From Sedimenticola sp. (GTDB taxonomy: Bacteria > Pseudomonadota > Gammaproteobacteria > Chromatiales > Chromatiaceae), in contig DRKS01000013.1 of NCBI GenBank assembly GCA_011051655.1, positions 21,811 through 85,810 on the forward strand: a stretch of DNA of 64,000 nucleotides, in the 5' to 3' direction. The number at the start of each line of letters is the position of its first letter. The first letter of the stretch is position 1. The position numbers and the translations under genes are program-made. This document shows, piece by piece, positions 23,452-39,653 of the stretch. The notes beneath the pieces are model-generated. The model ran no database searches. It had not been told where the DNA came from and saw nothing but the letters and a program-made list of their open reading frames with translations.

Positions 23452-23748
23452 TTATCTATTTGGTCTTTTGTCCGGATCATGGGCCTTCATATACTCCCGC
23501 AACAGGGTATTGATCTCCGTCTGGTATCCCTTACCGCGCGCTTTGAACCACGTAAGAACATCCCTGTCGATACGCAACGTTACCTGCTGCTTCCCAGGCC
23601 AGGATTTCAGCCCTTTACGCACAATGCCCTTGGCAAACATCTCCGGCGTAACTTCCGGATTTTCTGACATATTGATCTCCTCATCCGTCAGGGCATCGAC
23701 CCTCTTCCAATCAGTTTGGGAGGTGGTTGAAGAAGCTTTCTTGCTCAT
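23452..23748 (-). CDS. brnA: BrnA-type antitoxin / DNA-binding protein
   Basis: A 98-residue protein from the ATG at 23748 (MSKKASSTTSQTDWKRVDALTDEEI...). It has the BrnA family layout: an N-terminal linker that wraps the toxin and a C-terminal ribbon-helix-helix part, KQQVTLRIDRDVLTWFKARGKGYQTEINTLLREYM. It neutralises BrnT and represses the operon. It overlaps the toxin gene by 38 bp, so the pair is translationally coupled, with the toxin first as is usual for BrnTA. Confidence 0.88.
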   Translation of the reverse strand: MSKKASSTTSQTDWKRVDALTDEEINMSENPEVTPEMFAKGIVRKGLKSWPGKQQVTLRIDRDVLTWFKARGKGYQTEINTLLREYMKAHDPDKRPNR

Positions 23749-23986
23749 GTTTGGTTGCCTTTCGTATCGAGATGATGCGGATGGTATCGACATCTTCGGT
23801 GTGTACCACCGAAACGACGCGACCCTCCAGAAAACCGAATGTAATGAAGCGCTGTTCGCCGTAATCAACCCGGCCATCTTCAAGAGAGAGTGTCACACCT
23901 TCGAAGACCTGCTTACATCCAACAAAGTCGATGCCATGTTTTTGGATGTTGGCGAGACGTTTGGCTTCATCCCATTCGAATCTCAT
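23711..23986 (-). CDS. brnT: BrnT family toxin (RelE-fold ribonuclease)
   Basis: A 91-residue protein beginning MRFEWDEAKRLANIQKHGIDF, the hallmark of BrnT, with the later EQRFITFGFLEGRVVSVVHT strand pair and IRIISIRKATKHEQ. BrnT is an RNA-cleaving toxin with a RelE-like fold. It is the first gene of the pair and is transcribed away from the cas3 promoter; the two share the 24000-24140 intergenic interval. A small palindrome at 24001 may be its operator. Confidence 0.9.
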   Translation of the reverse strand: MRFEWDEAKRLANIQKHGIDFVGCKQVFEGVTLSLEDGRVDYGEQRFITFGFLEGRVVSVVHTEDVDTIRIISIRKATKHEQESFFNHLPN

Positions 23987-24000
23987 GCAATTACCCTTGA

Positions 24001-24012
24001 TTGTAGTTACAA
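24001..24012. promoter_or_regulatory. Short palindrome upstream of brnT, candidate BrnA operator
   Basis: TTGTAGTTACAA, 5-bp arms around a 2-bp centre, 15 bp upstream of the brnT start. Placement suits autorepression by BrnA; the sequence itself is short enough to be chance. Confidence 0.35.
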
Positions 24013-24084
24013 AACGTCAATACGAAAAGCCTGGACTTTATTATCTAAATCTGAAGTGTAAGAGGAGGCGCGAAATAAATCAAC

Positions 24085-24123
24085 TTCATGTTAGTTTTAT
24101 TAGATTGACAAATTTCTTATTCA
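24085..24123 (+). promoter_or_regulatory. Protospacer-like site in the cas3 promoter matched by the upstream mini-CRISPR spacer
   Basis: TTC at 24085-24087 is followed by ATGTTAGTTTTATTAG (24088-24103). The pseudo-spacer of the adjacent mini-CRISPR starts ATGTTCGTTTTATTAG (24177-24192). Fifteen of the first sixteen bases agree; the only difference is position 6, a position not base-paired in type I crRNA-target duplexes. TTC sits where a type I PAM belongs and fits the TTN reported for a type I-G system in Geobacter. A 36-nt footprint from 24088 would cover the -35 box. I infer that Cascade binds here and represses transcription, the partial match being too short to trigger cleavage. Confidence 0.75.
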
Positions 24124-24134
24124 ATCGGTATCCT
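24105..24134 (+). promoter_or_regulatory. Promoter of the mini-CRISPR RNA and cas operon
   Basis: A perfect -35 box TTGACA (24105-24110), an 18-bp spacer and a -10 box TATCCT (24129-24134). The predicted start near 24141 is right at the 5' edge of the first pseudo-repeat, as expected if the promoter serves the mini-CRISPR and reads on into cas3. Confidence 0.65.
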
Positions 24135-24142
24135 TTAATGGT

Positions 24143-24248
24143 GGTTTCCGATGCTGGGCATCGGCCTCATTGAAGGATGTTCGTTTTATTAGTAAGGACA
24201 TGAAATTGAAAATATTCCGGGGCAGCAGGCCCCGGCCTCATTGCCAAT
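24143..24248 (+). ncRNA. CreR-like mini-CRISPR RNA: pseudo-repeat, 36-nt pseudo-spacer, pseudo-repeat
   Basis: Pseudo-repeat 1 (24143-24176) has stem CCGATGC/GCATCGG and tail CCTCATTGAAGG. Pseudo-repeat 2 (24213-24248) has stem CCGGGGC/GCCCCGG, a 5-nt loop and CCTCATTG. The main-array repeat has stem CCGTGGC/GCCACGG, a 5-nt loop and tail CCTCATTGAAGC. So the 7-bp stems changed on both sides while the tail was kept. The CCG-to-CCG distance is 70 bp, equal to one array unit, and the pseudo-spacer (24177-24212) is 36 nt, inside the array's spacer range. The RNA lies in the 5' leader of cas3. Family knowledge: Cas-regulating RNAs (CreR) and CreA antitoxins use this two-repeat layout to guide Cascade to cas or toxin promoters. 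Function here is inferred from the promoter match. Confidence 0.78.
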
Positions 24249-24272
24249 TAACGAGACAAACAGGACAGGAAG

Positions 24273-26673
24273 ATGGATAGCATTGGTCCGCAACAGAGTT
24301 ATCAACGCTTTTTTCAAATAGCCATGGGAGCGGAAAAGAAGCCCTTTCCATATCAGACCAAACTGGCAACAGAGACTTGGCCGGACCTGCTGGAGATTCC
24401 AACCGGACTTGGAAAGACCGCCGCAGTGATTTTGGCTTGGCTCTATAAACGAAAAAACAGAGACTCCGATACCCCCGGGCGCTTGATCTACTGCCTGCCG
24501 ATGCGCGTACTGGTAGAGCAGACTCAACGCAACGCCGAACAATGGATAAAAGCACTTGGACTGAGCAATGATGTCTCCGTGCATTTGCTGATGGGCGGAG
24601 AGGAGTGTCTCCGCAAGGCAGCCTGGGCTGATTCTCCGGAGCAGGCGTGCATCCTGATCGGCACCCAGGACATGCTGCTCTCCCGTGCCTTGATGCGAGG
24701 CTACGGCATGAGCCGGTATCAGTGGCCCATGCACTTCGGCCTGCTGCATAACGATGCGCTGTGGATCTATGACGAGATCCAGCTCATGGGGGCAGGGCTG
24801 CCCACCACAGCACAATTGGAGGCGTTCCGGAGGGAATTCCCACTGGGGGCGCGAAGCCGCAGCCTGTGGCTCTCGGCCACCCTTCACCCCGATTGGCTGG
24901 CGACAGTTGATCTCAAGCCCCATCTTGCTTCACTCCGCCATGACACGCTGGGAGATGAAGACAGGCAACATCCTGCCGTCCGGCAGCGTACCCAGGCCCG
25001 CAAGATTTTGAGCAAAGCCGACATCGCTCTGACCGGAGCCACCAAGGCGGACACGGCCTCTTACATCACGGCGTTGGCGGACCGGGTTCGCCAGACCCAT
25101 ATGGATAACAGCAACACCATCGTCATCCTGAACCGGGTCGAGCGGGCTCAGGCGGTTTATCAGGAGCTCGCCAAACAGATGCCGGAAGTGGAGCGCCTCC
25201 TTATCCATGCCCGCTTCCGCCCCGGCGAGCGCCGAGCCCAGGCGGAAAAACTTACGGAAGAACCGGGACCCCAGGGGAGGATCATCATCGCCACACAAGC
25301 CATCGAGGCGGGTGTTGATATCAGCTCGGCCATCCTCTTTACCGAACTGGCCCCCTGGTCCTCCCTGGTGCAGCGTTTCGGCCGCTGCAACCGCTATGGC
25401 GAACAGCCGGTGGCCCATATCCACTGGATCGATATTGCAACCGATGCTAAACCCGATACCGCGCTGCCCTACGATCCCGCCGTCCTGGATGCCAGCCGCG
25501 AACAGCTGCTGAACCTCGAAGAGGCTGGCCCGGCCTCATTACCAAAAGTGAGCGGTGAGCGCCCCCTGTCGCCGGTGATCCGTCGCAAGGATCTGCTGGA
25601 TCTCTTCAATACCGATCCCGACCTGTCGGGCTTTGATGTGGATATTTCCATGTACATCCGAGACCAGGGCCCGCCGCAGATCCAGGTCTTCTGGCGCGAC
25701 TTCGACGATCAACCCGGCGACCAGGAACCGCCACAGCGGGATGAACTCTGTCCCGCCTCCATGGGGCAGATTGAGGCCTACCTGAAACCCGACAAGCGCC
25801 GAGCCTGGCAGTGGGATGGTCTCTCCGACCAGTGGCGGCCGGTGCAAAAGGGCCAACTCCGGCCGGGCCAGATATTGCTGCTGCGCAATAGCGATGGCGG
25901 TTATGACGACAAGCTGGGGTTCGAGGCCGGAACCAAAACACCCGTGCCTCCCATCCCCCTTGAGAAGAGCGAAGCCAATGGCGCCTATAGCGGCGATCCC
26001 GACAGCCGCCAGACCAAAGCCATTCCGTTGGCCAGACATCTGACCAACGTACATCAGACCGCCCGGAAACTGACGAAAACCCTCGGCATCGAGTTGTTTG
26101 CCGATACCGTCTGCCAGGCCGCTCTGTGGCATGACGTGGGCAAGTCGCATTCGGAGTTCCAGAAAACCCTCTATGGACAGGAGCGGGAAGCCGCTGAACC
26201 CCTGCTGGCGAAATCGAGCAGAAAAGGGAAACACAAGCGCGAATATCTGCGCCACGAACTCGCCTCCATGCTGGCGTGGCTGGAGCACGGCGAGCGTGAC
26301 AAGTGGCACGACCTGATCGCCTACCTGATCCTCGCCCACCACGGCAAGGTCCGCACCAGTATCCGCGCCATGCCGGATGAAGAGCCACCGAAGGAGGATT
26401 GGATCAAGCAACACGATCTGAACAACCCCCTCTACGCCCGCGGCATCTGGGAAGGGGACAAACTGCCCGCCCTGGAGATCGCAGGTGTCCCGATCCCCGA
26501 AACCCGCCTGCGGCTCGATCTCATGCGCCTGGGCCAGAGCGAACAGGGCGCCTCATGGACCGCCAGGGTACAGCAACTTCTGCACCAGCATGGGCCTTTC
26601 CAGTTGGCTTGGCTGGAGACCCTGGTGCGGATCGCCGACTGGCGGGCCACCGCCGAGGAACAGGAGAAGGACG

Positions 26674-26681
<8 letters not shown>
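24273..26681 (+). CDS. cas3: CRISPR-associated helicase/nuclease Cas3, type I-G (helicase then C-terminal HD)
   Basis: An 802-residue protein with the domain order of type I-G (formerly I-U) Cas3: helicase first, HD nuclease last. Visible are Walker A IPTGLGKTA (residues 42-50), the Walker B DEIQ near residue 167, LSATL, QAIEAGVDI and QRFGRCNRYG. The HD motif LWHDVGK lies near residue 619, with later ELASMLAWLEHG and LAHHGKVR histidines. Recruited by Cascade, it unwinds and degrades target DNA. An AGGA site precedes the ATG, and the mini-CRISPR lies within its leader. It overlaps the next gene by 8 nt. Confidence 0.96.
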
Positions 26682-29797
<3,116 letters not shown>

Positions 29798-29800
29798 CCC

Positions 29801-31297
29801 ATGCTCACCATCGAACTGAAATTTGTGGCTGGGCGCTATCACGCCACCCCGTGGGGGCGCCACGTCAATGAAGCGGATGTGGCCTGGCCGCCGGATGCCT
29901 GGCGGGTCATCCGGGCCCTGATCGCCACTTGGCACCGCAAGCTGGACAAGGATCGCTATCCCGAAACCCTGCTCTCCAGCCTGGTGGAGCGCTTGGCTGA
30001 ATCCCTGCCCCGCTACCATCTGCCCGGCGCCGTGCATACCCACACCCGCCACTACATGCCGATTCGCTCAGGCAAGGCGGAAAAACCGATTCTGGTCTAC
30101 GACGCCTTCGCCAGGATCGCCGCCAGTGAGCCCATCATAATGGCTTGGCCCGACCTTTCCCTTGGTCGGGAAGAGCAGGCCCTGCTAGATGAATTGCTGA
30201 CCTGCATGGGCTACCTGGGACGAGCCGAGAGCTGGCTGGAGGCCAGGCGCCTGGAACAGTGGGAAGGTAAGTTCAACTGCGTGCCGGGCGACCAGGCACT
30301 GGATGCCGAGACCGGCGAACTGCGAGAGATCGTGCGTTGCCTGGCGCCGCTCTCAAACGCAGAGTATCGGGCCCTGCGCACCAACCAGTTAGCGGCGCAA
30401 GACCAAAGGGGGCAAACGAGGCTGGCCAAAACCCTCCCGGAATCCCTCCTGGATGCCCTGCGTCTGGAGACGGCCGACCTGCAAAAAGCTGGCTGGAGCC
30501 AGCCGCCAGCAGCACAGAGTATCTGCTATCTGCGGGAACTGAATAGCCTAAAGCCCCAATCATTCCCAAAAACCAAAGTAACAAGCTGCACCCATGATAC
30601 CGCCCGCTTCATGCTGATCGGAAAACCACTGCCCCGCATTGAAAATGCAGTAAAGGTCGGAGAGTGGATGCGGCTCGCAGTATTGAGCAAGGCCAAGGGC
30701 GTATTCGGCGAAAACGCCATCCCCGCCTGCCTCTCAGGCCATGGGCTACCCAAGGGCAACCGCCACCAACACGCCTTCTTCCTGCCCGAGGATGCCGACG
30801 ACGATGGCCATATCGACCATATCTGGGTCCATGTGCCGCAAGGGCTCAGCCATGACAGCCGGCGGGCACTGGGGCGCTTAACCCACCTGAAAGGACGGGA
30901 CGGCGGCGAGTGGCAGCTGGTTTTAGAAACCACCGCCCAACGCGAACAATTCGCCGATGCCGCCCCGGTGGGAACCGCCGGATGCTGGGTATCCACGACC
31001 CCCTATCTCCACCCCTGGCATCTCAAGAAAAAACTCACGGTAGAGGATCAGATCCGCCGTGAATGCCGCGCACGGGGCATACCCGAGCCGGAAACGATGG
31101 AGCAGCTTCCGGAAATCACCATCCATGGCAAATCAAGACGAGCGATCCATTTCCATCGTTTCCGCTCCAAACGCGGCCTAACTCAGCCCGACACCCACGG
31201 CAGTTTTTGGCGGCTCACCTTTGCCAAACCCGTTCAAGGGCCATTGGCCCTGGGATTTGGCTGCCACTTCGGCCTGGGCCTGTTCAAGCCCATCTGA
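29801..31297 (+). CDS. csb2: Csb2 / Cas5-Cas6 fusion of type I-G (GSU0054 family)
   Basis: A 498-residue protein. The N-terminal half is Cas5-like (ELKFVAGRYHATPWGRHVNEADVAWPPDAWRVIRALI). The C-terminal part is Cas6-like and ends in the glycine-rich loop GPLALGFGCHFGLGLF. Csb2 therefore both processes pre-crRNA and caps the crRNA 5' handle. It begins 4 bp after csb1. If it recognises the altered stems of the mini-CRISPR in the cas3 leader, it would also cut its own operon's mRNA (inference). Confidence 0.9.
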   Translation: MLTIELKFVAGRYHATPWGRHVNEADVAWPPDAWRVIRALIATWHRKLDKDRYPETLLSSLVERLAESLPRYHLPGAVHTHTRHYMPIRSGKAEKPILVYDAFARIAASEPIIMAWPDLSLGREEQALLDELLTCMGYLGRAESWLEARRLEQWEGKFNCVPGDQALDAETGELREIVRCLAPLSNAEYRALRTNQLAAQDQRGQTRLAKTLPESLLDALRLETADLQKAGWSQPPAAQSICYLRELNSLKPQSFPKTKVTSCTHDTARFMLIGKPLPRIENAVKVGEWMRLAVLSKAKGVFGENAIPACLSGHGLPKGNRHQHAFFLPEDADDDGHIDHIWVHVPQGLSHDSRRALGRLTHLKGRDGGEWQLVLETTAQREQFADAAPVGTAGCWVSTTPYLHPWHLKKKLTVEDQIRRECRARGIPEPETMEQLPEITIHGKSRRAIHFHRFRSKRGLTQPDTHGSFWRLTFAKPVQGPLALGFGCHFGLGLFKPI

Positions 31298-31308
31298 GGA
31301 CAGCTGTC

Positions 31309-32382
31309 ATGGATGAAACACAATTCCACCCCAATGACCGTGTCTTCCACCCCATCTTTGGCTATGGGACGGTGGTTGAGGTCGGGGAAGACAGTGAACA
31401 GCTTTCCGTCCATTTCGATGGCTATGCCACGAAGTGGCTGGCGCTTAAATACGCCTTTTTGCGGTTGGTGACGCCCGAAGAGGAGGCTTCGGAAACGGCC
31501 AGGGCCGTCTCCTGGCTCGATACCTTTGTATTCGAGGAAGAGGGCGATCATTACTTTGGCACCCGCTGGACCCCTTTTTTCGATGACGCCGAAGGTTTCT
31601 TTCAGCGGCTGCCGGAGATTCTGCCGAAGGCCATCCCACTACAAGGCTATGGCGACTTTTTTCCGCCTCCACACCAATATCCGCCCGATTGGTCTAAGGT
31701 GCGGTACCTTGCCTGGCCGGATGTTCACCAAGCTGTGTTGCTGGCAATCAAGGAGAATGAGGGCCGGGAATCTGAGCTGGTCTCGCTCTTTCCTCACTGC
31801 CGCAGCGGCATGGAACATACGGTGACCATCGAGCGCGTGCTGGTTTGGAAAGACAGTTGCGAGGCGCAGATCGATGGAGTCGTTGGCCCCGCCTGTATCA
31901 CCTTCTTCGACACCCTGTATGGCGTGAATCGTGGCTGGTACGAATCGGGGCGGGATCTTCAGTTCATTCTCACCGGCATCGCCTACGATGCCTGTAAGGC
32001 CCCGATTCAGGAGTTCGATATCCCCCCATCCGAAGTAGATGCATCCATACGAGAAAAAGCAAAACAGAACGGCATCGATCTCACCGAATTGCCGTCAAAG
32101 ATAGACACCCGCCACATGCAGATACTGCTCCCCATTCCGGATTGGGACAGGGATGACTACCAGTTCCACGGGCCGGTGAAATCGGTGAAGGAGACGGTGA
32201 TGCTGAATCAGCCGGGGTGGCTGATACGGACTGCTTTGGTGCGCGGGATGGAGGACGACAGGGAGTACGATTTCGATATCCTCATCACCCGCAAGGCGTG
32301 GGAAGGCGATGAGCCGCCCAGGGCCGGCGAAAATATCGAAGGGGCGATGTGGCTCCAGGGTTATCTCTGGTCGGCGAGGTAA
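31309..32382 (+). CDS. Unknown protein in the type I-G operon with N-terminal Tudor/SH3-like domain
   Basis: A 357-residue protein from the ATG at 31309, 11 bp after csb2, with a GAGGA site. Residues 1-60 (FHPNDRVFHPIFGYGTVVEVGEDSEQLSVHFDGYATKWLALKYAFLRLV) resemble the small Tudor-like domain at the C-terminus of UvrD/PcrA helicases. A middle region (about 65-200) with many acidic and aromatic residues and a C-terminal half are not recognised. It is not one of the standard type I-G genes. Spacing suggests cotranscription with the effector genes. Binding of a nucleic-acid machine is a guess from the first domain only; a general cargo gene is the alternative. Confidence 0.7.
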   Translation: MDETQFHPNDRVFHPIFGYGTVVEVGEDSEQLSVHFDGYATKWLALKYAFLRLVTPEEEASETARAVSWLDTFVFEEEGDHYFGTRWTPFFDDAEGFFQRLPEILPKAIPLQGYGDFFPPPHQYPPDWSKVRYLAWPDVHQAVLLAIKENEGRESELVSLFPHCRSGMEHTVTIERVLVWKDSCEAQIDGVVGPACITFFDTLYGVNRGWYESGRDLQFILTGIAYDACKAPIQEFDIPPSEVDASIREKAKQNGIDLTELPSKIDTRHMQILLPIPDWDRDDYQFHGPVKSVKETVMLNQPGWLIRTALVRGMEDDREYDFDILITRKAWEGDEPPRAGENIEGAMWLQGYLWSAR

Positions 32383-32396
32383 GGAGTATCGTGCCG

Positions 32397-32735
32397 CTAC
32401 ATCCCCATCACCGCCAACAAGCTCCTCTCCACCGCCGTCATCTCTTCGGGAGTCAAGCGCGTGATCGGCCCTTCGCCAAAACGGCTGCGGTCCAGGGCGC
32501 GGGGATGCTCCACCATGGCGTAGCAATCCTGGAGCAGGCGGTCACGGGCAGTAATTTGGATGCGCATGGGGGCGAAGGCTGGGCGGTATTGGGTGGTGAG
32601 TGGGATGGTGATGATGGTGGGTAGCTCAGTGGTGAGGAGCCGGTCCTCCTGCATGATGATGACCGGGCGTTGTTTGCCGATTTCAGCCCCTTTGTTGGGG
32701 TTGTGGTTGGCGATCCAGATCTCACCCCGGCGCAT
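32397..32735 (-). CDS. MazF/PemK family mRNA interferase toxin
   Basis: A 112-residue toxin with MRRGEIWIANHNPNKGAEIGKQRPVIIMQ at the start, the conserved MazF substrate-site strand, followed by TIPLTTQYRP and ITRLTPEEMTAVERSL. MazF toxins cut mRNA at specific sites. The ATG overlaps the antitoxin stop as TAATG, so translation is coupled. It sits antisense inside the cas gene series, 15 bp from the end of the unknown cas-operon gene. Confidence 0.92.
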   Translation of the reverse strand: MRRGEIWIANHNPNKGAEIGKQRPVIIMQEDRLLTTELPTIITIPLTTQYRPAFAPMRIQITARDRLLQDCYAMVEHPRALDRSRFGEGPITRLTPEEMTAVERSLLAVMGM

Positions 32736-33043
32736 TATTTCCACCACTTCTGGTTAGGGTCGATGCCTGCTGCGCGGTCTGATTCGATGATGGCATCAAG
32801 CCCTTCATCGATTGAGTCAAAGTCGTTGGCGATTTCGAGCGATTCGGCCACGGCGGCAGGGTTGGCGGCCAGTGCCTTGGCGGCGGCCGCCAATTGCGCC
32901 ATAAACCGCTCTTTCTCACGGCGAGCCAGATATTCGGCAATGGCCTCGCGAGCCACTTCGGAGCGAGGCTTGCCCTCGAGGTCGGACTCATGACTGAGCC
33001 GGGCTTCAAGCTCTTCAGGAAGTCTTATGCTGATAGCGGCCAT
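32735..33043 (-). CDS. Ribbon-helix-helix antitoxin of the MazF pair
   Basis: A 102-residue protein from the ATG at 33043. The first 45 residues (AISIRLPEELEARLSHESDLEGKPRSEVAREAIAEYL) are a CopG-type ribbon-helix-helix; the acidic C-terminus (DFDSIDEGLDAIIESDRAAG) is the expected toxin-binding tail. It represses its own promoter, which must lie in the 93-bp gap before cas4-cas1 and points away from it. Confidence 0.88.
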   Translation of the reverse strand: MAAISIRLPEELEARLSHESDLEGKPRSEVAREAIAEYLARREKERFMAQLAAAAKALAANPAAVAESLEIANDFDSIDEGLDAIIESDRAAGIDPNQKWWK

Positions 33044-33136
33044 ATTGAATTTCTCTTTGAATGACAATCTGTATTACAAAATATAGTTTCAGGTGGACTT
33101 GAATACAAGTCACCGGATTCACTAAGGAAACCACCC

Positions 33137-34849
33137 ATGGACCACGGCCCCCAACAAGAACTCCCCCTCTCCTTCCCGGAGTTCACCGGCGACATGCCGC
33201 TCATGCCGGCGCGGATGATCAACGAATATGTCTACTGCCCACGCCTTGCCTATCTGGAGTGGGTGCAGGGGGAGTGGGCAGATTCCGGGGATACCGTTCA
33301 CGGGCGCTGGGTGCACCGGCGGGTGGACAAGCCTGCGAAAGAGTTGCCGCCGCCGGAGAAAATCGAGCAAGAGGAGCGCTTCCACGCCCGCTCTATCACC
33401 CTCTCCTCCAACCGGCTCGGGCTGATCGCCAAGATGGATCTGGTGGAGGGCGACGGCGAAACCGTCACCCCGGTGGATTACAAACGCGGCAAGCGTCCCC
33501 ATGTGGCCAAGGGCGCCTATGATCCGGAGCGGGTGCAACTCTGCGTTCAGGGCATGCTGCTGGAAGAGCATGGTTACCGGTGCGAGGAGGGGGTGCTCTA
33601 TTTTGCCGGCTCCAGGGAGCGGGTCACGGTCCAATTCGACGAGGAACTGCGCAACAAAACCCTCTCCGCCATCAACGGCCTGCGGTTGTTCGCCGCGGGC
33701 GGCCATGCACCGTCACCGCTGGAGGAGAGCCCCAAGTGCCCGCGTTGCTCATTAGTGAGCATCTGTCTGCCAGACGAGGTCAACTTCTTCCGCCATGGCG
33801 GCGAGAATCCGCGCCCCCTCTCCGTCATGCGGGACGAGGCCCTGCCGCTGTACGTGCAGGCCCATCACGCCAAGGTGGCGAAGAAGGGCGAGGTGCTGGA
33901 GGTCTCGGTGGACGGCAAGCGAGTCACCCAGGTACGGCTGCTGGACGTCTCCCAACTGGTGTTGATGGGCAACGTCTACGTCACCTCGCCCTGCCTGCAG
34001 GAGTTGATGAAACGCGAGATCCCCATCACCTGGCACTCCTACGGTGGCTGGTTCTACGGTCACTCCGTCGGGGCGGGCCATAAAAACGTTGAACTGCGCA
34101 CCGCCCAATACCAGGGGAGTTTCGACGAGCAGGTCTGCCTGCGCATTGCTCGAAACCTGGTGCACGATAAGATCCTCAATTGCCGCACCCTGCTCCGGCG
34201 CAACTGGAAGGGGGATGAAAGCAACAAACCCCTCATGCAGGACCTGAAGCGTGATGCCACCTGCGCCCTGCGTGCCCAAAGCATTGCCGAACTGCTGGGT
34301 ATCGAGGGGGCCGCGGCCGCCCGTTACTTCGGCAACTTTGCCCGGATGATCAAGCGGGATCCCAACAGCGACGGCTTTGCATTCGATTTCACCCACCGCA
34401 ACCGCCGCCCCCCCGCCGATCCCGTCAACGCCCTGCTCTCCTATGCGTATAGCCTGCTGTCACGCACCTGGCATGTCACCCTTGCGGCGGTGGGGTTCGA
34501 TCCCTACCGCGGTTTCTACCACCAACCCCGTTATGGAAGGCCCGCATTGGCGCTGGATATGATGGAGCCCTTCAGGCCACTCATCGCCGACTCCAGCGTC
34601 ATCTCCGCCATCAACAACGGCGAGGTGCGGCCCAGCGATTTCATCAGTGCCGCCGGCAGCGTCAACCTTACCCCGGATGGGCGCAAACGCTTCATCGCCG
34701 CCTTGGAACGCCGGCTCACCCATGAGATCACCCACCCGGTATTCGGCTATAAGATAAGCTATCGCAGAGTGTTAGAGGTGCAGTCCCGACTTCTTGGCCG
34801 CTTCCTGACCGGCGAAATCAACCAATTCCCCAACTTCATCACAAGGTGA
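33137..34849 (+). CDS. cas4-cas1: Cas4-Cas1 fusion, type I-G adaptation protein
   Basis: A 570-residue fusion. The N-terminal Cas4 part has NEYVYCPRLAYLEW, DYKRGKRP and the Fe-S cysteines CPRCSLVSIC. From about residue 230 the Cas1 part follows, with SHSVGAGHKNVELR-like and NALLSYAYSLLS helices and the catalytic-region GFDPYRGFYHQPRYGRPALALDMMEPFRPLIAD. The Cas4 half selects PAM-bearing prespacers; Cas1 integrates them at the leader. This fusion is a hallmark of type I-G (formerly I-U). An AAGGAAA site precedes the ATG. It is separated from the effector genes by the toxin-antitoxin pair, so it probably has its own promoter at 33044-33136. Confidence 0.95.
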   Translation: MDHGPQQELPLSFPEFTGDMPLMPARMINEYVYCPRLAYLEWVQGEWADSGDTVHGRWVHRRVDKPAKELPPPEKIEQEERFHARSITLSSNRLGLIAKMDLVEGDGETVTPVDYKRGKRPHVAKGAYDPERVQLCVQGMLLEEHGYRCEEGVLYFAGSRERVTVQFDEELRNKTLSAINGLRLFAAGGHAPSPLEESPKCPRCSLVSICLPDEVNFFRHGGENPRPLSVMRDEALPLYVQAHHAKVAKKGEVLEVSVDGKRVTQVRLLDVSQLVLMGNVYVTSPCLQELMKREIPITWHSYGGWFYGHSVGAGHKNVELRTAQYQGSFDEQVCLRIARNLVHDKILNCRTLLRRNWKGDESNKPLMQDLKRDATCALRAQSIAELLGIEGAAAARYFGNFARMIKRDPNSDGFAFDFTHRNRRPPADPVNALLSYAYSLLSRTWHVTLAAVGFDPYRGFYHQPRYGRPALALDMMEPFRPLIADSSVISAINNGEVRPSDFISAAGSVNLTPDGRKRFIAALERRLTHEITHPVFGYKISYRRVLEVQSRLLGRFLTGEINQFPNFITR

Positions 34850-34853
34850 CGCC

Positions 34854-35144
34854 ATGGAAGAACATCTCTACATCGTCAGCTACGACATTCGCGACGCCAA
34901 GCGCTGGCGGGCCATCTTCAAACTCATGAAAGGTTATGGTGAATGGCTGCAACTCTCGGTATTCCAGTGCCGCATGAGCCGCAAGCGCCATGCCGAACTG
35001 CTGGCCACACTGGATGAAATCATCCTGCACGACCATGACCACGTCTTGATGCTAGACTTGGGCATGGCCGACAGCGTGACTCCACGCATTGTCAGTCTTG
35101 GGAAGAGTTTCGAACCGGTAGTGCGGGAGCCGGTCATCATATAG
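34854..35144 (+). CDS. cas2: CRISPR-associated endoribonuclease-fold protein Cas2
   Basis: A 96-residue Cas2 with YIVSYDIRDAKRWRAIFKLMKGYGEWLQLSVFQC at the N-terminus, the usual ferredoxin-like fold start with the conserved aspartate, and LDLGMADSVTPRI later. It bridges two Cas1 dimers in the integration complex. It starts 4 bp after cas4-cas1 with an AAGGTGA site, and the leader and array follow directly. Confidence 0.95.
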   Translation: MEEHLYIVSYDIRDAKRWRAIFKLMKGYGEWLQLSVFQCRMSRKRHAELLATLDEIILHDHDHVLMLDLGMADSVTPRIVSLGKSFEPVVREPVII

Positions 35145-35391: not shown

Positions 35392-38300
35392 GTTATCCGT
35401 GGCAAATAGCCACGGCCTCATTGAAGCTGGTGGAGGGGCAGCGACACTGGCTGGACTGCATGGAGTTATCCGTGGCAAATAGCCACGGCCTCATTGAAGC
35501 ACATGCACCAATCAAAGATAACCTGTCCTTTACCATGTTATCCGTGGCAAATAGCCACGGCCTCATTGAAGCAAGGGCTTGTGCGGTATCGGCTATTTCT
35601 GAAGACCCGTTATCCGTGGCAAATAGCCACGGCCTCATTGAAGCTTCTTTATTTTCCCGCTTTTAACTCCTTTATTGTGTTATCCGTGGCAAATAGCCAC
35701 GGCCTCATTGAAGCAATTGGTTGGTGATAGCTTTTTCAATGATCTCAGCTCGTTATCCGTGGCAAATAGCCACGGCCTCATTGAAGCCGCCCCTGGCGGG
35801 CCAGGTCGTCCAGCGCCTCTTCAAGTTATCCGTGGCAAATAGCCACGGCCTCATTGAAGCAAGACCTAGGTGCTTCTCACAATACGCCCTATCGTAGTTA
35901 TCCGTGGCAAATAGCCACGGCCTCATTGAAGCCCAGATTTGAGGCCACCACGCCCATGGCAATGGCAGTTATCCGTGGCAAATAGCCACGGCCTCATTGA
36001 AGCCTACCAATACATGGGAATAACTACCGGGTGAAAATCCGTTATCCGTGGCAAATAGCCACGGCCTCATTGAAGCCCCTGTATCTTTCTGAAAAGCGTA
36101 CATTTTACGGCCGTTATCCGTGGCAAATAGCCACGGCCTCATTGAAGCAACCTTTTTTTCATTCATCTGACAATGCCTTCAAAAAGTTATCCGTGGCAAA
36201 TAGCCACGGCCTCATTGAAGCATGCCTGGCCGCTTGCTGTGCATCCTGATGGACCTGTTATCCGTGGCAAATAGCCACGGCCTCATTGAAGCCCAGTAAC
36301 CGCTTGCTGAGGTCCGTCGGCGAGCCAGGTTATCCGTGGCAAATAGCCACGGCCTCATTGAAGCTCGAAAGACAGACGAGGGCCTCGCCTGTGTCATAGT
36401 CAGTTATCCGTGGCAAATAGCCACGGCCTCATTGAAGCCCGGAAGCCTTGCACCGCATAAACAGGCGCTTTTCGTTATCCGTGGCAAATAGCCACGGCCT
36501 CATTGAAGCGGCGGACAAGCCGTTTTCCGCTCTGGTGCTTGATGGGTTATCCGTGGCAAATAGCCACGGCCTCATTGAAGCGTGATTCGATAGGTCTCCC
36601 AAAGCTCGATATGCCGGGTTATCCGTGGCAAATAGCCACGGCCTCATTGAAGCGTCTTAATCGAGGAGGGGAACTTTTCCACCAGGTGGGGTTATCCGTG
36701 GCAAATAGCCACGGCCTCATTGAAGCTATGACTACGTCCGCACTCTCTCCGGCAGCCTTCTGGGTTATCCGTGGCAAATAGCCACGGCCTCATTGAAGCA
36801 TTCGGGCGGAAACATCTTACCTTTCCGTCTTACCCGTTATCCGTGGCAAATAGCCACGGCCTCATTGAAGCTGTTACGTATCCGCTGATTAGTACCGTCG
36901 AATAAAAAGTTATCCGTGGCAAATAGCCACGGCCTCATTGAAGCCCCCGGGTTTCCTGCCGCTTGGTAATCGGAATAATAGGTTATCCGTGGCAAATAGC
37001 CACGGCCTCATTGAAGCTCGGGGAGACTAGTTTAAATGGCTTATCGTGTACAGGTTATCCGTGGCAAATAGCCACGGCCTCATTGAAGCAGACGGCGTAA
37101 TGGCGGGAGTGTCGTTAGTCTGCAGTTATCCGTGGCAAATAGCCACGGCCTCATTGAAGCGCATCGTGATGCGTACGACGAAGATATTTAACGCGAAGTT
37201 ATCCGTGGCAAATAGCCACGGCCTCATTGAAGCGGAAAAAGCAACTCCCGGGTACAATCCCATAAAAGACGTTATCCGTGGCAAATAGCCACGGCCTCAT
37301 TGAAGCATTTCTTTGGGGGATGCGCAGCAGAAAGATGCCGGTTGTTATCCGTGGCAAATAGCCACGGCCTCATTGAAGCTCTGTTGGTAGCCGTTAATGG
37401 AACAAAAGTGATACCGGTTATCCGTGGCAAATAGCCACGGCCTCATTGAAGCGATGGTGATCATAGCTGTGAGTTCGAGACGTTGTATGTTATCCGTGGC
37501 AAATAGCCACGGCCTCATTGAAGCTGACCATGTTCAAGAATCTCTTTGATCCAGTCGCCGATGTTATCCGTGGCAAATAGCCACGGCCTCATTGAAGCAT
37601 ATAGGCGGTTGTTCTTTATAGCTTTTTGTTCTAGTTATCCGTGGCAAATAGCCACGGCCTCATTGAAGCCCTAATTTGCAGGCCATTCATTCCACAGAAG
37701 GGCGGGTTATCCGTGGCAAATAGCCACGGCCTCATTGAAGCGACGAAGCAGGAACGCAACTGCAATCAGGATCGGACGTTATCCGTGGCAAATAGCCACG
37801 GCCTCATTGAAGCAACAGATACGGAGAAGAGTCTGCCGGCAGGGTCGTGGGGTTATCCGTGGCAAATAGCCACGGCCTCATTGAAGCTTGTATATACTGA
37901 TAATCGAGGGCACAAAACTTGCGTTATCCGTGGCAAATAGCCACGGCCTCATTGAAGCAGGCCAGCGAGCTGATACCGCCGCCAAGCGACCTCAGTTATC
38001 CGTGGCAAATAGCCACGGCCTCATTGAAGCGGCGAGCAGTGCTGGCCCGCTTTCGTCAATGAGCGCAAGTTATCCGTGGCAAATAGCCACGGCCTCATTG
38101 AAGCCGGATGCCGCATTTCAGCGCTGCGGCCAGGGCCACTGTTATCCGTGGCAAATAGCCACGGCCTCATTGAAGCAGCTCAGTTTCACGTTCCTTTCTT
38201 ATCTTTTCTAAGTTATCCGTGGCAAATAGCCACGGCCTCATTGAAGCTAAGGTTTTTTCTTCTTTGAGGACAGGCACCACACCCGTTATCCGTGGCAAAT

Positions 38301-39616
38301 AGCCACGGCCTCATTGAAGCTAATTCCTTAAGGGTATACCTAGTACTTTTAACACTGTTATCCGTGGCAAATAGCCACGGCCTCATTGAAGCTATAACAA
38401 ATCCATGCAGCCTTTTATGCAGATTCATGGTTATCCGTGGCAAATAGCCACGGCCTCATTGAAGCTACAATAAGGTTGTAAATAAAAACCCTATCCTCTT
38501 TCGTTATCCGTGGCAAATAGCCACGGCCTCATTGAAGCATTAGTGTTCTTTCACTGCATTTTTGCCCCATCCTAAGTTATCCGTGGCAAATAGCCACGGC
38601 CTCATTGAAGCGATATTGTGGAAGAGATAAATAATGATTTATTAGAGTTATCCGTGGCAAATAGCCACGGCCTCATTGAAGCTTCCCCGACCTTATCCTG
38701 GGATGCGTTCTCAAGCGGTTATCCGTGGCAAATAGCCACGGCCTCATTGAAGCACGCCTGCGCTTTTTCGCCGCCCTGCGCATCTTTGGTTATCCGTGGC
38801 AAATAGCCACGGCCTCATTGAAGCTCCTTGGCCGCCTTTTTCCAGTCCTCCAGACTCACGTTATCCGTGGCAAATAGCCACGGCCTCATTGAAGCGTCTA
38901 CGTTTCCGCCAAAAGCGAGGCGGGCTTTTCCGGTTATCCGTGGCAAATAGCCACGGCCTCATTGAAGCCCGTCCTATTTCCAGCAAACCCAGTTGACACA
39001 AATGGTTATCCGTGGCAAATAGCCACGGCCTCATTGAAGCTTGGCATGTCGTTGTCCTTAATAGGGGGTTGCGTGAAGTTATCCGTGGCAAATAGCCACG
39101 GCCTCATTGAAGCATTACAGGAGTTAAAAAACCAAATGGAGCGTACCTGGTTATCCGTGGCAAATAGCCACGGCCTCATTGAAGCTGCGGAATCATCGGA
39201 TACTGTTGTTCGGCCACGGCGTTATCCGTGGCAAATAGCCACGGCCTCATTGAAGCGACAAGGTTGGGCCGGCCGGGGCGCCAGATTGCCCGGTTATCCG
39301 TGGCAAATAGCCACGGCCTCATTGAAGCTTCCTGGTGGATGAGTTGATTGCGCACTTGCATGGCGTTATCCGTGGCAAATAGCCACGGCCTCATTGAAGC
39401 ACCAGGATGTATTCATCATCCAGCGTGCCGCCGCTGTTATCCGTGGCAAATAGCCACGGCCTCATTGAAGCCTCTCCCCACCGGCGGCTGTAGCCCAGTC
39501 GCTCCAGGTTATCCGTGGCAAATAGCCACGGCCTCATTGAAGGGGACACCAAATCCTGATCCCGAAAGAACTCGTTAAAAGTTATCCGTGGCAAATAGCC
39601 ACGGCCTCATTGAAGC
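35392..39616 (+). CRISPR. Type I-G CRISPR array, 59 repeats of 36 bp and 58 spacers
   Basis: I counted 59 repeat starts between 35392 and 39581, spaced 70-74 bp, so spacers are 34-38 bp. The repeat reads GTTAT, then stem CCGTGGC, loop AAATA, stem GCCACGG, then tail CCTCATTGAAGC. Repeats looked identical on reading except repeat 58 (39508-39543), whose last base is G instead of C. No duplicated spacer was noticed by eye. The tail is the crRNA 5' handle. The near-perfect uniformity and large size point to an array that is, or recently was, actively acquiring spacers. Confidence 0.98.
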
Positions 39617-39653
39617 ATAACTGGAGGAATTTACAGTGCAGCATTTATCAGCA

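Follow-up and report, generated by a model that had tools for sequence, protein, structure and literature searches.

Overall, the window analysed here, a stretch of 64,000 nucleotides from Sedimenticola sp., carries at 24141-24247 a worn mini-CRISPR that we regard, at a probability of roughly 85%, as a CreR-type guide source, predicted to repress the promoter of its own cas operon without cutting it. The match between its spacer and the promoter, the PAM beside the target, the overlap of the target with the -35 box and the co-change of guide and target in related loci lend support to the CreR-like interpretation proposed in an initial annotation of this DNA. Two observations would extend that interpretation. 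The transcript predicted for the targeted promoter includes the guide itself, and in several relatives such guide and target pairs stand over toxin genes instead of immediately ahead of cas3.

The window encodes a type I-G system, as indicated by family profiles for Cas3g, Cas8g, Cas7g, Csb2, Cas4g/Cas1g and Cas2, and the reading frames are open over their full length. On the plus strand, the first operon gene is cas3g (24273..26681; TIGR02621, 816.9 bits), followed by cas8g/csx17 (26485..28824; TIGR04113), whose real start is probably ~26683, where the family match begins. Next come cas7g/csb1 (28841..29797; TIGR02570) and csb2 (29801..31297; TIGR02165), a Cas5-Cas6 fusion that constitutes the repeat-cleaving subunit. 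The cas4g/cas1g fusion (33137..34849; NF049935), cas2 (34854..35144; PF09827) and the main CRISPR array of 59 repeat copies (35392..39620, end approximate; repeat GTTATCCGTGGCAAATAGCCACGGCCTCATTGAAGC) follow on the same strand. Between csb2 and cas4/1 there is a stretch of 1.8 kb without a recognised gene (31298-33136), and an ORF at 31063-32382 overlaps csb2, its sole match being a short UvrD C-terminal stretch. On the minus strand, a BrnT toxin gene (23711-23986; PF04365) and a BrnA antitoxin gene (23452-23748; PF14384) are divergent from the cas operon, and the intergenic region between them and the operon is the one that holds the target of the guide.

Upstream of cas3, two pseudo-repeats resembling CRISPR-DR16 flank a spacer of 35 nt, all on the plus strand. 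The first pseudo-repeat (R1, 24141..24176) comprises a hairpin and the 5′ handle ATTGAAGG at 24169-24176. The spacer, or guide segment (24177..24211), begins with ATGTTCGTTTTATTAG. The second pseudo-repeat (R2, 24212..24247) retains a 7-bp hairpin, its 5′ handle is decayed (ATTGCCAA), and it ends 25 nt before the ATG of cas3. Both hairpins contain the I-G repeat tail GGCCTCATTG. Against RF01330, an Rfam CRISPR repeat family, R1 scored 25.2 bits (E 1.3e-3) and R2 28.8 bits (E 9.7e-5), both below the gathering score of 35 bits. R1 and R2 are unlike each other and unlike the repeat of the 59-copy array. An ordinary type I-G array, a second array and an array remnant were ruled out, since the repeats differ and their decay is uneven. 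The locus has the composition of a CreR gene, namely, two repeat-like units around a spacer-like segment, beside the cas genes and outside the main array. On the minus strand, the R2 hairpin (24217-24235) resembles an intrinsic terminator.

The initial annotation placed the guide at 24177 and its target at 24088, behind a TTC, and both the coordinates and the sequences are as it gave them. The spacer segment ATGTTCGTTTTATTAG and the target segment ATGTTAGTTTTATTAG agree at 15/16 positions, and the single mismatch falls exactly at position 6, as had been claimed. The target protospacer occupies 24088..24122 on the plus strand (matched part 24088-24103), and the TTC at 24085..24087, directly 5′ of it, conforms to the TTN PAM described for type I-G (PMC9638904). 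Past position 16 the agreement drops to background level, which bears out the annotation's remark that the match is lost there. As is typical of CreR, the 5′ part of the spacer is thus partly complementary to the predicted cas promoter and adjoins the PAM of the subtype. When the 500 nt upstream were shuffled under a Markov model, the score of the window with a TTN PAM was reached in 0/3000 shuffles. In the genome (3.1 Mb, 96% complete), TTN followed by ATGTTNGTTTT occurs once, and a genome-wide search with 19 nt and two mismatches allowed returned only one other match, the spacer itself, which is preceded by AGG rather than TTN and is therefore not its own target. As a control, the pattern read backwards gave one match in the search for TTN and seed and four matches in the 19-nt search. 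Therefore, uniqueness in the genome is modest evidence alone, and the weight rests on the position in the cas promoter and on the relatives.

The 35-nt footprint of the target covers the -35 box TTGACA (24105..24110, plus strand) of the predicted promoter, in agreement with the annotation; 5/1000 shuffles gave a promoter-like pair as good. The -10 box TATCCT (24129..24134, plus strand) follows after a gap of 18 nt, and 10/12 bases conform to the consensus. The pair at 24105-24134 is the sole promoter-like site on either strand of 23900-24300, a stretch whose shuffles average 0.8 sites, and none was found on its minus strand. The predicted +1 at ~24141 coincides with the first base of R1, which reproduces the start assigned earlier to the edge of the first pseudo-repeat; this prediction would leave no room ahead of the guide, which bears on a possible small toxic RNA like CreT. 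With transcription starting there, the guide would share one transcript with cas3. RNA folding of the leader from R1 to cas3 revealed nothing unusual (z -0.86).

According to biochemical work on type I-G, in which a Cascade of this subtype was reconstituted in vitro, the first repeat supplies the mature guide with an 8-nt handle and the second with a hairpin, the Csb2 cut lying 4 nt beyond the hairpin (PMC9638904). If Csb2 cuts each hairpin of the window at this site, the mature guide RNA would span 24169..24239 on the plus strand. The same activity suggests another role for the hairpins. Since hairpins of this kind are bound and cut by Csb2 (PMC9638904) and both R1 and R2 lie within the predicted cas leader, they might be mere landing sites through which Csb2 regulates its own mRNA post-transcriptionally, by binding or cutting the leader, the spacer match being irrelevant. 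We consider this very unlikely, because it leaves unexplained both the loss of the R2 handle and the TTN-flanked seed matches, with mismatches at positions 6 and 12, that recur in 11 loci. Csb2 may well act on the leader hairpins in addition to the guide circuit.

Further type I-G loci were collected by searching for cas3g with TIGR02621, and every tally given below counts the genome of the window. The family-level search covered 210 genomes, 33 of which were positive at E up to 1e-100, and its order-level repeat returned an identical tally and identical places. The class-level search covered 369 genomes (21 positive at 1e-60), and the phylum-level search covered 398 (7 positive at 1e-140). 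With all separate places listed included, 69 loci were obtained (36 + 23 + 7, two named loci and the window); at least 700 nt of upstream sequence was available for 65 of them, and L140 lies under the TIGR02621 cut-off.

Paired pseudo-repeats are present upstream of the operon in 12 of these 69 loci, from 12 genomes and 9 genera (the window, L098, L101, L104, L105, L107, L108, L110, L114, L121, L131 and L138). They were not found in the other 57, three of which have less than 700 nt upstream, and the mini-array is patchy among I-G loci. The spacers measure 33-37 nt. Eleven of the 12 mini-array loci have a target with a TTN PAM on the same strand, at a distance of 69 to 420 nt upstream; the search of other I-G loci for paired diverged repeats before cas3, which the initial annotation had suggested, thus yielded further cases. 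The annotation had also named the observation that would speak against it, that is, related loci in which the hairpins are kept and the match is lost. Eleven loci keep their target, and L138 is a locus of the contrary kind, with paired repeats and flanks without a target, its best site being preceded by GGC. The only genome-wide seed match of L138 besides its own spacer reads as coding sequence and was taken as chance. L097 has a lone hairpin resembling the second repeat, and the 408 nt from the contig start to cas3 contain neither a partner nor a target for it. A second scan of the 69 loci, in which the handle and an exact 10/10 seed were demanded and the second repeat was not, recovered 7/11 pairs, being too strict for L098, L101, L108 and L110. 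It detected no new pair in the 69 loci, and its other matches lay in arrays or were scattered in coding stretches.

All 12 guides differ, and each target follows its own guide. The best site of each locus was chosen by score alone, with no PAM asked for and with positions 6 and 12 ignored, and TTN precedes this site in 11/12 loci (GGC in L138). A score of at least 13/15 was reached by 8/12 self-pairs and by none of the 132 cross-pairings between loci, the maximum of which was 12, attained once. In 36 comparisons with the opposite strand or the downstream side, no best site scored above 11. The bare scores of L107, L114, L104 and L138 (10-11) fall inside the cross-pair range; the first three are set apart from L138 by a TTN PAM and by matches at all of positions 1-5 and 7-11. 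When shuffles were made for each locus with the PAM required, the observed score was reached in 0/3000 for eight loci, and the individually weaker matches were those of L104 (3/3000), L107 (21/3000) and L114 (7/3000). A chance match was rejected on the basis of the shuffles and the cross-pairing, and chance is very unlikely since ten related loci pair different guides with different targets. Hence, as in CreR, guide and target have changed together so that the match persists in 11/12 loci, L138 being the exception.

The distribution of mismatches within these 11 pairs is also uneven. Positions 1-5 and 7-11 are matched in 106/110 cases, whereas position 6 is matched in 4/11 (Fisher p 1.5e-6 versus the rest of 1-11) and position 12 in 3/11 (p 0.019 versus 13-16). 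Agreement amounts to 36/55 at positions 13-17 and to 43/187, the background level, at positions 18-34. Because positions 6 and 12 were ignored in scoring, they were free to match, and matches at both are about as frequent as expected by chance. Every sixth crRNA base is flipped out in the I-G complex (PMC9638904), and the mismatches at 6 and 12 are those that a 5+1 base-flipping effector predicts. The mismatch at position 6, which the annotation had linked to the flipped-out base of type I crRNA-target duplexes, recurs in relatives. Target position 6 is an A in 9/11 loci, and the guide base differs in 7 of those 9; perhaps this reflects just the A-richness of promoters.

A mini-array of this kind might also be a relic, the decaying end of an array whose spacer was taken from the cell's own promoter and is now idle. 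The degenerate repeats, a match that spans just half of the spacer and the patchy distribution would all suit a relic. However, free decay would lose matches evenly, whereas in these unrelated sequences the seed and the PAM have been retained and the mismatches are concentrated at positions 6 and 12 and past 17, and we regard such a relic as extremely unlikely. In the 12 mini-arrays, the 7-base handle core ATTGAAG is altered at 3/84 positions in R1 compared with 31/84 in R2, and the predicted folding energies are -10.2 to -18.4 kcal/mol for the R2 hairpins and -1.3 to -16.3 kcal/mol for those of R1, several R1 stems being nearly gone. The scan for mini-arrays demanded at most one change in the ATTGAAG of R1 and an R2 stem of at least 5, so the retention of the R1 handle and the R2 hairpin is partly built in; no scan criterion selected for the decay seen in the R2 handle and in several R1 stems. 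The pattern is one that would preserve one guide, not two repeats.

In 7/11 loci, the -35 box of the best promoter-like pair lies at +15 to +21 of the target. For these seven, 2 to 166 of 1000 shuffles were as good (5 for the window, and 54-166 for four of the seven), and the promoter calls in L105, L107, L110 and L121 were no better than shuffles.

Toxin genes accompany several of the relatives. In L104 and L114, a DUF6364 gene and a PIN-domain gene enclose the target and the mini-array (-2005 to -1045 and -1995 to -1109, respectively, relative to the start of the cas3 match), the PIN gene of L104 being assigned by its similarity to that of L114. L103 shares flanks with L104 that are 96% and 93% identical, and it is without the target, the guide and the PIN gene, which form one block of ~703 nt. 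The arrangement in L104 and L114 looks like RNA-guided control of a type II toxin. The order in L107 is parD, target, parE, mini-array and cas3 (-991 to -190). L106, which is near L107 in cas3, has no toxin pair and no mini-array upstream and shares with L107 only the last ~150 nt before cas3, from which we infer that cas3 there may have its own promoter. In L098, the order is DUF6364, target, mini-array, PIN remnant and cas3. Two loci that lack a mini-array likewise have toxin genes ahead of cas3, namely, ParE/ParD-like genes in L132 (-659 to -1166) and a PIN gene in L021 (-590 to -261), and I-G operon leaders seem to attract toxin-antitoxin genes.

These neighbours raise the question of a CreA-type function, in which the mini-array would be an RNA antitoxin, the target promoter would drive a toxin in a CreTA- or CrePA-like manner, and the repression of cas3 would be incidental. 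Such a function would account for the targets between antitoxin-like and toxin genes in L114 and L104 (DUF6364/PIN), L107 (ParD/ParE) and L098 (DUF6364 with a PIN remnant), for the joint absence from L103 of all that the ~703-nt block of L104 holds, and for the divergent BrnT/BrnA pair of the window. For the window, however, we find it improbable. Nothing lies between the predicted start and R1, only 25 nt separate R2 from cas3, and brnT starts ~100 bp away on the other strand, which has no promoter-like site in 23900-24300; moreover, as in L132 and L021, toxin genes precede cas3 where no mini-array exists. Judged by layout, the target promoter would drive a protein toxin in L104, L107 and L114 and would not do so in the window. 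There, the ORF reading revealed no gene between the target and cas3, and the mini-array is uncoupled from a toxin gene, as expected of CreR, with the divergent brnTA nearby. Therefore, CreR-type self-repression of cas is the best reading for the window. The same device appears to control cas in some loci and possibly controls toxins in others, and the layout of the window places it in the cas group.

Short ORFs were also observed near other targets. On the minus strand of L101 (-658 to -747) and L105 (-459 to -542), ORFs with a single membrane span, 48% identical over 27 aa, start 40-62 nt from the target and read away from it, and L108, L110 and L121 have short hydrophobic ORFs of similar look. 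No Pfam family was found at cut-off for the three of these ORFs that were scanned; a toxin or a small membrane protein is possible. Between the mini-array and cas3 of L101 (-256 to -176), a hydrophobic ORF of 26 codons with an AGGAGG-like ribosome site was noticed by eye.

The Cas3 tree does not support a single ancestry of the mini-arrays. It comprised 65 of the 69 loci (L143, L145, L146 and L147 were left out and scanned separately, without a mini-array being found), and the mini-array label requires 11 changes on it, compared with a mean of 11.3 for shuffled labels (253/500 shuffles were as low). Close neighbours differ in the presence of a mini-array (L103/L104 and L106/L107), and L098 and L101, from one genus, have unrelated guides in different places. 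This scatter, together with the differing neighbours and the unrelated guides, indicates repeated birth or loss. We tentatively speculate, with considerable doubt, that the half-decayed mini-CRISPR of type I-G might be a recurrent, swappable module located in the transcript of the promoter that it targets, that it arose repeatedly beside toxin-antitoxin genes and replaced the antitoxin control of PIN or ParE in some lineages, and that in the window the cas operon is its sole target. In this view, every guide would be cut from the leader of a cas or toxin-cas mRNA, and guide and effector, the two components of the repressor, would both originate from the promoter that they shut.

For the window, we propose the following putative circuit. 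The promoter at 24105-24134 would start an RNA at ~24141, and the layout suggests that R1, the spacer, R2, cas3, cas8, cas7 and csb2 are transcribed as a single RNA, given the 25 nt between R2 and the cas3 ATG and the absence of any other promoter-like site in 23900-24300. Csb2 would cut 3′ of each hairpin, as in the biochemistry of type I-G, releasing a guide of ~71 nt and a trimmed cas mRNA. Together with Cas7, Cas8 and Csb2, the guide would bind 24088-24122 through the ~16-nt seed match adjoining TTC, and the bound Cascade would keep RNA polymerase off the -35 box. Since full pairing is absent, Cas3 would not be licensed. The guide would turn the cas genes down once the defence complex suffices, and repression would lift once array crRNAs occupy Cascade or Cascade is inactivated.

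Such a mechanism is known in kind, given the precedents of CreR and CreA. In type II systems, tracr-L makes Cas9 act as a repressor, with a single protein and with RNAs unlike those of the window. Shmakov et al. 2023 (NAR) reportedly described CRISPR-derived regulatory mini-arrays in which two repeat-like units enclose a spacer with partial complementarity to promoters of cas or cargo genes, an architecture that resembles that of the window. With scaRNA, a CRISPR effector also becomes its own or a host repressor, but this is a type II system with a single protein and different RNAs (PMC9458426). CreR, from Liu et al. 2023 (Cell Host Microbe), is a crRNA-like RNA that regulates cas (PMC12737573, PMC12948488), and guides of this kind are said to occur widely in type I and V-A (PMC12737573). 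Like the window, CreR, as presented in these sources, has a pseudo-repeat guide near cas, a partial match to the cas promoter and predicted repression by Cascade without cutting; the window differs in being type I-G and in carrying its guide downstream of the target, within the leader of the very operon that it would repress.

CreTA, with its guide CreA, is described from haloarchaeal I-B and Acinetobacter I-F systems (PMC9458426, PMC10097628), and repeat degeneration is treated in one of these reports (PMC9458426). In the Acinetobacter I-F CreA, 17/20 bases pair, skipping 6, 11 and 18, the first repeat is diverged and the second conserved, and the target lies downstream of the toxin promoter; the authors report no canonical seed (PMC10097628). 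The window resembles CreA in the diverged first and conserved second repeat and in a short match with mismatches at or near every sixth position. However, CreA represses the toxic RNA CreT, whereas cas3 stands directly behind the guide of the window and the target lies on the -35 box, and in contrast to the Acinetobacter guide, the I-G loci show a strong match at 1-5 and 7-11. CrePA resembles L104, L107 and L114 in that guide and target stand over protein toxin genes. The CreP toxin is said to have typically a KilA-N domain and to act on FtsZ (PMC12737573), unlike the PIN or ParE toxins of the I-G relatives, and the window has no CrePA layout. Among the literature matches listed, none concerned CreR in type I-G, although either of the 2023 studies (Liu et al., Shmakov et al.) may include this subtype. 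Judging by the sources cited here, the novel elements are the occurrence in type I-G, the location of the guide within the leader of its target operon and the toxin-linked relatives, and we do not claim a first description.

Type I-G has been described as the least well understood type I subtype (PMC9638904), and it gains here a predicted self-limiting circuit that is open to testing, with the guide, the target, the PAM and the predicted start all named. Additionally, the co-changing pairs amount to natural mutagenesis, according to which a regulatory, non-cutting guide keeps positions 1-5 and 7-11, does not keep 6 or 12 and keeps little past 17. The toxin-linked relatives bear on a point that a 2025 review treats as unsettled, namely, whether guides also control toxins in further CRISPR types and control further kinds of toxin (PMC12737573). 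If the mini-CRISPR were indeed a recurrent module, it would serve in some lineages as a guard that holds ordinary type II toxins in check by means of a guide RNA.
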